Shown here in pieces: positions 11,881 to 57,333 of a stretch of 64,000 nucleotides of DNA. This stretch comes from Chryseolinea sp. GTDB taxonomy: Bacteria > Bacteroidota > Bacteroidia > Cytophagales > Cyclobacteriaceae. How positions within the stretch are numbered: position 1 is the stretch's first letter; every line of letters begins with the position of its first letter. Both the position numbers and the translations under genes were made by a program. The stretch is from NCBI GenBank assembly GCA_025923195.1, contig JAICGJ010000005.1, positions 22,981 through 86,980 on the forward strand, given 5' to 3'. The notes under the pieces are model-generated. The model worked only from the letters and a program-made list of their open reading frames with translations. It was not told the origin of the DNA and searched no databases.

Positions 11881-12107
11881 TCCGTTGTCCGTTGTCCGTT
11901 ATCCGTTATCCGTTAATAGTTAATAGTTAATAGGGAGTGAGCGAGGGTGTGTCGCTCGATTACAACTCGAATGGCGAAGAATGGACAAGACTACAAATTA
12001 ATAATGTTACCGATTGACATCCTGCACTAATCGGGATCGAGCGACACACCCTTCCCCGCACCCACTATTAACTATTAACGGATAACTAATAACGGTTAAC
12101 GGTCAAC
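11881..12107. repeat. Palindromic intergenic element, copy 1: outer GTTATCCGTTAATAG-type arms, inner 16-bp perfect inverted repeat, about 75 bp centre
   Basis: 11945-11960 gggtgtgtcgctcgat is the exact reverse complement of 12036-12051 atcgagcgacacaccc; outer arms CCGTTAATAGTTAATAG / CTATTAACTATTAACGG. Confidence 0.85.
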
Positions 12108-52510: not shown

Positions 52511-52528
52511 GAATACAAATGATGGAAA

Positions 52529-52920
52529 GTTAATAGTTATCCGTTAATAGTTATTAGTTAATAGTGGGTTGGGGCGAGGGTGTGGTTCCTTGATCTTCGT
52601 GCGTAGTCCTAACCCATGAAAAAAGTTAATGAAAAATAATAGCGACACGATAAGAAGACCATGCGCACCACGTCTTCTCATGATAGTATCAGCGGGGCAA
52701 TCATAAACTTTCTTTGCTAAACGTCGTGGGCCAGGATCGACAACTGAAAAATAGCACGCATCATAATAAGCGCACATCACACCCACACCCACTCCCACTA
52801 TTAACTAATAACTATTAACTAATGACTATTAACGGATAACTATTAACGGATAACTATTAACGGATAACTATTAACGGATAACTATTAACGGATAACTATT
52901 AAAACTGATAACGGACAACG
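52529..52920. repeat. Palindromic intergenic element, copy 2: GTTATCCGTTAATAG-type arms around about 225 bp centre
   Basis: ttattagttaatagtggg (52551-52568) is the exact reverse complement of cccactattaactaataa (52794-52811), with further imperfect arm matches outward. Confidence 0.85.
52825..52894. repeat. Perfect 14-bp tandem repeat, five copies of ACTATTAACGGATA
   Basis: Five exact consecutive units, followed by a degenerate actattaaaactgata. Confidence 0.92.
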
Positions 52921-54579: not shown

Positions 54580-56832
54580 TTAAACTTCTTCCAAGTTAAA
54601 AGGTAATGTTCTAATCCGTTTACCGGTTAAATCAAAAATTGCGTTGGTCAAAGCAGGAGTAAACGGCGGCAATCCCGGCTCGCCTACACCTCCAGCCTTT
54701 TCATCATTATCCATGACGTGAACCTCGATCTCAGGGGTCTCATTTATTCGTATCATTTTGTACGTATCAAAATTCTTCTCGACAGCCTTGCCATCCTTGA
54801 AGTGCGTTGCGTGTTTGGTGGCGGCACCCAGGGCCATGATTATGCTTCCTTCAACTTGCGCCTTAATGATGTCAGGATTCACGTACCAACCGCAATCCAT
54901 CACCGCCCAGACCTTGTCGATCTTCACTTTTCCGTCGGGTTTCTTAGAGACTTTTACCACTTCGCCCACAATACTGGAGAAGCATTCAGTAATGGCAACA
55001 CCATACCCCACCTTCGCTGAAGCTTCGGCGGGCACGCCAACCTTCGCTGAAGCTTCGGTGGGCACGCCCTCCTTCGTTGAAGCTTCGGCGGGCAAGCCTT
55101 CATTTTTTTTCCTGTTTTTCCATCCACTAACTTCCTCGAGCTTATTAATCAACAAGTGATAACGTTCCTCGCCGAGATGCTGTCTTCTGAATTCGAGCGG
55201 GTCTTTTCCAGCTGCGGCAGCTAATTCATCCATAAAGCTTTCATAGGCAAAACCGTTGGTGGAGGAGTAAACCGAGCGCCACCACATCACCGGGATCGGA
55301 GAGTCAAGCGGCAAGTCAGAAAAACTGAAATGTGGAATACTATCAAAATACGATTCAAGGAATCCTTCGGTAGTACTGCCGTTATAAGAATCCTTGGAGG
55401 CGCCAGGCCATTGGTGGTCCATGTTCTGTCCGGCCATCGTAAATTTATAGCCTGAAATCCTGCCACCTTCATTCAGTCCGCCGGAGCACTTATATACCAT
55501 TCCAGGTCTGAATGGCCCGAGCAATGTGTCGTCTTCTCTTGTCCATATTACCTGCACAGGCCCTTTGATCTCTTTAGAAATGAATGCTGCTTCCTGGGTG
55601 TAGTCGAAAAACGCCTTTCTCCCAAAGCCACCGCCAAGGAAAGTCATGTTTACTATTATTTTATCCTTAGGTATGCCCAGAACTTTCTCCAGGTCATCCT
55701 GTATCCAGCCTGGTGCCTGGATCGGTCCCCAGATTTCAGCGGAATCCGCCTTCACGTCCGCAACGCAATTGAGCGGTTCCATACAGCTGTGCGACTCATA
55801 GGGTGTCTCATACACCGCTTCAACTTTTTTTGTTGCCTTTGAAAGTGCGGCAGTTACGTTTCCCTTCGTGCGGTATGAAATCCCCTCCTTACTTTTCAGC
55901 GACTCATTCATCGCGGCGTACAGCTGCTCCGTGCTGTGATGTTCAAATCCTGTATCGTCCCACTCCACCTTAAGGGTTTTTCTGCCCTGCAATGCGTTCC
56001 AATAGCTATCTGCCACAACGGCAACGCCTTCGCGAGTAGACGAAAATACATTTACTTTCACTGTAAATACATGTTTGACACCAGGCATTTTCCTTGTCGC
56101 TGTATCATCAAAACTTTTTACTTTACCAATAAACCTGGGGTTGCGTTCAATCACAGCATACAACATGCCAGGAAGTTTTTTATCGAGCCCAAAAATCGCT
56201 GATCCATTGGTTTTAAGCGGAGTATCCTGCCTCGGCACTGGTTTACGCAGAATTTTATAGTCTTCGGTTTTTTTCAGGACGATGTCTGCCGGCGGTTGAA
56301 GCTTGGATGCAGCCTCCACCAATTCCCCGTAATGAAATTTCTTATTTGATGATTTGTGTATGACGTTTCCATTTTCCGCGTAGCATGATTCACGGGCTAC
56401 GTTCCATTTTTTTGCAGCAGCTTCGATCAGCATTTCACGTGCGGAGGCACCCATGCGAAGCAAATGTTTATAGGCGGAACGAACTGTTGAGCTTCCACCA
56501 GTTATCTGATTTCCGTATTTCTTCTCATTGCCAATGCCAAAGACAATATCTACTTTATCCAAGTCCACCTCGAGTTCTTCTGCTATCATCTGCGGGACCG
56601 TTTGATAAGCCCCCTGGCCCATCTCAGCACGATGATTCATGATCGTAACCTTGCCCGTAGTATCAATGGAAATCCACGCATTCAACTCTACCCCTAGGTC
56701 CGCTGCCGTGTCACCTTTCAAAATCTTCATTTCCTCTCCATTCACACCATGTAGGCCAAGCGTGAGGGCGGCCCCTGTCATGCTGGAGAGCTTTATAAAA
56801 TTCCTTCTTGATATTGTATTTCTTGTTTCCAT
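54580..56832 (-). CDS. Tat-exported xanthine-dehydrogenase-family molybdopterin-binding subunit (isoquinoline/aldehyde oxidoreductase-like)
   Basis: SRRNFIKLSSMTGAALTLG Tat-like signal, NHRAEMGQGAYQTVPQMIAEELEVD, TFLGGGFGRKAFFDYTQEAAFIS, GGVGEPGLPPFTPALTNAI. Confidence 0.93.
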   Translation of the reverse strand: METRNTISRRNFIKLSSMTGAALTLGLHGVNGEEMKILKGDTAADLGVELNAWISIDTTGKVTIMNHRAEMGQGAYQTVPQMIAEELEVDLDKVDIVFGIGNEKKYGNQITGGSSTVRSAYKHLLRMGASAREMLIEAAAKKWNVARESCYAENGNVIHKSSNKKFHYGELVEAASKLQPPADIVLKKTEDYKILRKPVPRQDTPLKTNGSAIFGLDKKLPGMLYAVIERNPRFIGKVKSFDDTATRKMPGVKHVFTVKVNVFSSTREGVAVVADSYWNALQGRKTLKVEWDDTGFEHHSTEQLYAAMNESLKSKEGISYRTKGNVTAALSKATKKVEAVYETPYESHSCMEPLNCVADVKADSAEIWGPIQAPGWIQDDLEKVLGIPKDKIIVNMTFLGGGFGRKAFFDYTQEAAFISKEIKGPVQVIWTREDDTLLGPFRPGMVYKCSGGLNEGGRISGYKFTMAGQNMDHQWPGASKDSYNGSTTEGFLESYFDSIPHFSFSDLPLDSPIPVMWWRSVYSSTNGFAYESFMDELAAAAGKDPLEFRRQHLGEERYHLLINKLEEVSGWKNRKKNEGLPAEASTKEGVPTEASAKVGVPAEASAKVGYGVAITECFSSIVGEVVKVSKKPDGKVKIDKVWAVMDCGWYVNPDIIKAQVEGSIIMALGAATKHATHFKDGKAVEKNFDTYKMIRINETPEIEVHVMDNDEKAGGVGEPGLPPFTPALTNAIFDLTGKRIRTLPFNLEEV
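55011..55100 (-). repeat. Three tandem 30-bp units encoding an in-frame (G-x-PxEAS-x-K) decapeptide repeat inside the molybdoenzyme gene
   Basis: 55011-55040 ccttcgctgaagcttcggcgggcacgccaa; 55041-55070 ccttcgctgaagcttcggtgggcacgccct; 55071-55100 ccttcgttgaagcttcggcgggcaagcctt. Protein: GLPAEASTKE GVPTEASAKV GVPAEASAKV. Confidence 0.95.
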
Positions 56833-56853: not shown

Positions 56854-57333
56854 TTATTTCGCGCTTGCCTTTTGACTCATGAGTTGAGAAGCTGTTTTTA
56901 TCGCCTTACGTATGCGTGGATATGTTCCACATCGGCAAATATGTCCTTGCATAGCTGCATCAATATCTTTGTCTGTGGGATTGGGATTTTTCTTTAATAA
57001 GGCCGTTGCTGCCATTATCTGACCCGACTGACAATATCCACACTGGGGGACCTGTTCCTGGATCCATGCCTGTTGCACAGGATGAGAATTGTCAGTGGAC
57101 AACCCTTCAATGGTGGTGATATTCTTATTATTTGCTGCCGTTACAGGAATGGAACAAGATCGAACCGGCGACCCTTCCAGGTGCACCGTACACGCTCCAC
57201 ATTGGGCAATTCCGCAACCATACTTGGTACCTGTCAGACCTACTACGTCGCGGATGGCCCACAGAAGGGGCATCTTTGGATCAACATCGACGTTATAACT
57301 CTTGTCGTTGATTTTTAACTTTATGGAAGCCAT
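56854..57333 (-). CDS. (2Fe-2S)-binding small subunit of molybdo-hydroxylase
   Basis: [22 protein letters not shown] and [16 protein letters not shown]...[16 protein letters not shown]. Confidence 0.96.

Follow-up and report, generated by a model that had tools for sequence, protein, structure and literature searches.

In Chryseolinea, a gene for a xanthine-dehydrogenase-family molybdopterin large subunit contains copies of a dispersed REP-like palindrome. The insertion is real, keeps the reading frame and is lineage-specific, and the distribution of the palindrome across phyla is unexplained. We consider it probable that the insert represents three tandem units of an untagged, REP-like and probably mobile dispersed palindrome, which was inserted in frame, multiplied and tolerated as a surface loop. 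The gene (54580..56832, minus strand) lies in the window, the whole 64-kb stretch of DNA analysed here, and encodes a protein of 750 aa with a Tat-like signal, for which the Pfam TAT_signal match was slightly below the cut-off. Pfam domains MoCoBD_1 and MoCoBD_2 were identified, and the closest solved structure is 8gy3_C, the large subunit of a membrane-bound aldehyde dehydrogenase. The ORF list contains a neighbouring 159-aa ORF (56854..57333, minus strand) with a 2Fe-2S cysteine pattern; named from these cysteine motifs, it is likely to encode the partner subunit of the molybdoenzyme.

The 90-bp insert and its absence from orthologs

The insertion occupies 55009..55098 on the minus strand (residues 579-608), as defined by TRF and by aligning codons with insert-free orthologs. 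It consists of three 30-bp palindrome units on that strand, which in coding order read GLPAEASTKE (unit 1, 55069..55098), GVPTEASAKV (unit 2, 55039..55068) and GVPAEASAKV (unit 3, 55009..55038). TRF reported a tandem array at 55010-55098 with a period of 30, 3.0 copies and 89% matches. Together with the ORF translation, this confirmed the proposal of the sequence-only reading that three in-frame 30-bp units repeat with an exact 10-codon period, and the array stood while its earlier coordinates of 55011-55100 proved to be about 2 bp off. The palindromic core proposed for the units was also borne out, as GAAGCTTC, a perfect 8-bp palindrome, is present in all three. The TTCGCTGAAGCTTCGGCGGG core occurs three times in the window, at 0, 1 and 1 mismatches, against a chance expectation of 0.01 from dinucleotide shuffles. 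Units 1 and 2 differ from unit 3 at five bases, and because four of these five differences change the amino acid, the insert peptide is without sign of constraint. The mRNA of the three-unit insert has a predicted fold of -47 kcal/mol (z -2.8).

Orthologs from the same genus (G001-G005), as well as more distant ones, matched residues 1-579 and 609-750, with the middle missing. In a codon alignment, five clean orthologs (G004, G003, G028, G021 and G005) showed a gap of exactly 90 bp between KKNE and GYGVAI; for G001 and G002, which lie outside this alignment, the evidence consists of adjoining match ranges and their inclusion in a later alignment. Orthologs with the clean gap are 71-87% identical. 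The insert sits between KKNE and GYGVAITECF, and its placement is ambiguous by one codon because Gly is found on both flanks. The extra 30 residues were absent from every ortholog aligned, the codon alignment revealed no seed sequence for repeat growth at the insertion site in the orthologs, and no target duplication was detected there beyond a possible GG/GGG. An AlphaFold model built from an 18-sequence alignment (mean pLDDT 82, pTM 0.84) gave pLDDT values below 50 for residues 578-605, between a helix (556-569) and a conserved strand (608-617), and the insert is predicted by this model to be a disordered loop. Homolog alignment and structure modelling, both called for by the sequence-only reading, bore on its two questions: the clean gap established a lineage-specific insertion, and the model favoured a disordered loop.

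Copies, turnover and candidate movers in Chryseolinea

A search for more copies, also proposed at the outset, found almost none in the host genome but revealed an intergenic, REP-like expansion in congeners. One further convincing near-copy was detected in the host genome, at C73:446 with 2 mismatches, directly upstream of a recognisable 5S rRNA gene, together with two 3-mismatch matches of doubtful meaning. With just one further convincing near-copy, the host species shows no sign of a current expansion of the unit. A direct repeat, TTAAGGTGACTATA, borders this near-copy (L004) and resembles the 5' end of the 5S gene. The many copies typical of REPs were missing from the host genome (4 copies) but present in two congeners, with 112 and 154 matches at ≤2 mismatches compared with 0-1 for a reversed-pattern control; one of these is Chryseolinea serpens DSM 24574 (G003) and the other is G001, a complete genome. 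Three other congeners contained 0-1 copies.

All 97 distinct classified sites in G001 were intergenic according to a purpose-built, heuristic codon-usage gene caller trained on G001 loci, and the flanking genes were convergent at 35 gaps and divergent at 7 (p=7.5e-6). The window copy is the sole Chryseolinea copy shown to be coding; at L165 of C. serpens, a gene was called weakly. The spacing of successive units in Chryseolinea arrays was a multiple of three in 10 of 36 cases. Array spacing elsewhere is thus not kept to multiples of three, and the 30+30 of the window is accordingly the spacing that an open frame would demand.

Orthologous gaps of G001 and G003, with flanks about 79-92% identical, have the unit in common but differ in its number, as in the gaps after tRNA-Pro and tRNA-Tyr, where two units in one genome correspond to one in the other. 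Unit orientation also differs in several orthologous gaps, and in one orthologous pair a longer 'CGCAAAG' palindrome has the unit in one arm at L192 and in the other arm at L115. Such turnover in number and orientation, seen as differences between genomes rather than as single events, would be expected of a mobile or recombinogenic element. At L192, L115 and other Chryseolinea loci, units were nested in either arm of longer intergenic palindromes with ACCGCAAAGGCGC...CTTTGCG motifs. The unit consensus, approximately GCCYNCC-TTCGCTRAAGCTTC-GGCGRGC, is about 28-30 bp long and folds with a 7-bp outer stem. The arms covary, in that a right GAG was accompanied by a left CTC in 15 of 29 cases and a right GGG by a left CCC in 132 of 162. 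The idea of a UNCG tetraloop, with an identical base at both TNCG positions, was rejected on the pair counts.

According to the reading that we prefer, one unit would have entered the molybdoenzyme gene in frame after the species split from its congeners, and it would then have multiplied to three, unless the whole array was copied in. With a unit length of about 10 codons and a core that is free of stops in five of six frames, translation would have continued through the insert, yielding a disordered loop rich in Ala, Glu and Lys that was tolerated. Transposition as the process, the order of insertion and tandem growth, and neutrality are the parts of this account that we infer.

Known REP systems combine a GTAG tag with a RAYT transposase. 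It is possible, although we think it unlikely, that the unit is a classical REP for which a Y1 (HUH) tyrosine transposase of the same genome provides the mobility, which would be compatible with the preferred reading and would supply its mover. The unit is REP-like in its size (REPs are imperfect palindromes of 20-40 bp), in its hairpin, in its many copies in the two congeners and in its location in G001, which is intergenic, at gene 3' ends and in convergent gaps; in C. serpens, inverted unit pairs 50-120 bp apart resemble REP doublets. Y1 transposase genes were found in all six genomes. However, these include the genomes without unit copies, none of 16 Y1 loci had a unit (≤3 mismatches) within ~1.5 kb, such that a unit-flanked RAYT gene was not found at these loci, and the Y1 loci of the two unit-rich genomes are followed downstream by unrelated palindromes. 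Neither tag was enriched beside the unit among 191 distinct copies: GTAG occurred within 18 bp in 4 cases on the left and 8 on the right, compared with 15 farther out on the left, and CGTC in 10 and 16 cases, compared with 16 farther out. No donor copy or mobilising transposase was identified for the window insert. CGTC repeats are likewise without a dedicated transposase (PMC3733652), so that the lack of one for the unit does not exclude mobility. The earlier proposal that the units arrived as a mobile element thus draws support from presence/absence and turnover, while the mobilising enzyme was not found.

The GTAG/CGTC repeats share further properties with the unit. They are short hairpins found as singletons, inverted pairs and clusters, mostly intergenic and located at gene 3' ends and in convergent gaps, and some copies lie inside genes of several phyla, with groups encoding 20-30 aa (PMC3733652). 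In contrast, the unit is untagged, has one ~22-bp core common to many phyla including Patescibacteria, is strongly biased to one codon register and often lies against tRNA genes. Bacterial MITEs, for which occasional in-frame fusions are known (PMC10969869), are similarly small, non-autonomous and built on inverted repeats; however, terminal inverted repeats and target duplication were not identified for the unit, which is itself a palindrome. Two further candidates were set aside. A phage vehicle is unlikely, with 2 stretches in 2.9 million viral contigs, and a match to Rfam Ms_IGR-8 was sub-threshold (25.9 bits versus 44), arose from inverted GAAGCTTC pairs, was absent in ten other loci and was judged to be due to chance.

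The tandem arrangement, exact 30-bp period and 89% similarity would also be expected of a local coding minisatellite, a common kind of array, for which slippage would have multiplied a stretch of the gene itself and the likeness to the palindrome would be due to chance. We regard this as improbable. The orthologs offer no seed at the site, 20-21 of the 21 positions of the unit cores agree with the dispersed family, far beyond the window expectation given above, and the same core is abundant in congener genomes; ortholog alignment and genus-wide copies largely refute it.

The unit in other phyla: coding register and tRNA genes

The exact 22-mer was found in at least 118 stretches of GTDB genomes. 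Taxa among the matches listed comprised many Patescibacteria, Bradyrhizobium, Bacteroidota, Planctomycetota, Verrucomicrobia, Omnitrophota and others, including cultured isolates, and 30 genomes with the 22-mer that were searched whole mostly contained several copies apiece (control 0). The distribution is patchy: the unit was present in 17 of 380 Patescibacteria genomes (~0.001 sites expected, control zero) and in 1 of 396 genomes of a Bacteroidota sample, namely the host itself.

Outside Chryseolinea, a composition-based heuristic gene caller placed about a third of sites (39/117) inside predicted coding genes, and at 13 of 117 (11%) a tRNA gene lay no more than 12 bp away. Host genes confirmed by Pfam encode RsmH, DegT, PrmC, HsdM and a RadA-like protein, and the DegT protein with the unit has exactly 10 residues more than a homolog of solved structure, PDB 7b0m, and than two relatives. 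A ValS copy was rejected as a clean insertion, as relatives of equal length exist, and looks like a replacement or an old insertion. These genes support the comparison drawn by the sequence-only reading with a palindrome that persists as an in-frame peptide, as the dispersed family is in frame in genes of other phyla too. In the DegT gene from Patescibacteria (L136:2292-3629), we observed a second in-frame insertion, HSTSSGQAS (8 aa), encoded by TTCGACAAGCTCAGGGCAAGC. Of 40 related genomes, 13 contained this 21-mer with no more than one mismatch (control 0), and it looks like another dispersed repeat family entering genes.

Intragenic copies were strongly biased in register, with 32 of 40 in the xEAS/xKAS register (17 PAEASAK and 15 FAKASAGK; p=2.8e-7 against two of five open frames), although the sites are partly non-independent, the gene calls heuristic and the frame model picked after the data had been seen. 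Because the core is palindromic, PAEASAK and FAKASAGK represent one register read from either strand, and the window insert is read in the EAS/KAS register too. The simplest reading of this bias is that the other registers, which yield a stop or else peptides that are basic or rich in cysteine or proline, have been purged. The preferred registers across phyla give hydrophilic Ala-rich peptides, and the window frame has stayed open through ~5 substitutions, as might be expected if the 30-aa loop had been recruited by selection, for example for partner docking or stability. However, purging of harmful frames explains the bias equally well, the residues are missing from every aligned ortholog and disordered in the model, and the between-unit differences are mostly non-synonymous (4/5). 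We therefore find a functional insert hard to credit.

In-frame palindromes are known as RPEs in Rickettsia, at ~150 bp (PMC10969869), and the earlier comparison with them held for in-frame persistence but not for size and class, in which RPE descriptions set the unit apart. The logic is alike, a palindrome surviving as an in-frame peptide in unrelated genes whose orthologs are without it (the window gene and DegT), and the core was found on one Rickettsiales MAG contig. However, it is very unlikely that the unit is a true Rickettsia palindromic element or a direct descendant of one, since RPEs measure ~100-150 bp and were described from Rickettsia, and RPE-4 and RPE-6 carry a CGTC tag (PMC3733652), whereas the unit is ~28-30 bp, untagged, differently distributed, not Rickettsia-specific and mainly intergenic where abundant. 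Repeats can mislead assembly and the host assembly consists of 379 contigs, but an assembly or binning artefact is scarcely plausible, given that the array lies ~9 kb inside an 87-kb contig with an intact reading frame, that the orthologs remain similar on either side of an insertion of exactly 90 bp, and that the family is present in isolates including C. serpens DSM 24574.

Several tRNA loci displayed particular arrangements of the unit. Two placements were seen among L070, L091, L133, L178, L339, L121 and L076. In Patescibacteria, the unit sits directly against tRNA-Gly or tRNA-Pro at the 5' end of the gene, and its GGCGGGC arm coincides with the start of the acceptor stem. In Bacteroidota, it lies 2-4 nt past tRNA 3' ends. 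At the tRNA-Ser loci L013/L034 and L190/L191, units overlap or abut both gene ends and apparently share acceptor-stem strands (GGCGAGC/GCTCGCC).

Meaning of the palindrome family

Protein-coding palindromes have mostly been seen as peculiar to Rickettsia, apart from intragenic REPs dotted about other taxa. In-frame REPs and RPEs have been described already; neither the cross-phylum family nor its register bias appeared in the literature searched. In that literature, largely without subscription journals, such that an earlier description may exist, the longer core strings were not found, and the 11 papers matching shorter core strings were apparently unrelated, as judged by title.

We tentatively hypothesize that a single family of selfish palindromes, ~28-30 bp long, travels from phylum to phylum (Bacteroidota, Patescibacteria, Alphaproteobacteria, Planctomycetota, Verrucomicrobia and others) and survives in genes by virtue of its stop-free core and a harmless EAS/KAS register from either strand; it might be moved by a novel enzyme, the targets of which may be hairpins and the acceptor-stem sequences of tRNAs. 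An untagged palindrome common to distant phyla, which lies between genes in genomes rich in copies but is in frame inside genes and has a measurable register bias there, represents a natural experiment in the passage of non-coding mobile DNA into protein. The family points to a mobilising activity, maybe other than the known RAYT system, and would account for the FAKASAGK and LPAEASAK peptides that recur among proteins predicted from environmental genomes. Elsewhere in the window, TRF detected 7/14-bp tandem arrays at 11881-11915, 12069-12100, 52528-52565 and 52797-52902, some of them based on TCCGTTA/TAACGGA-like heptamers.
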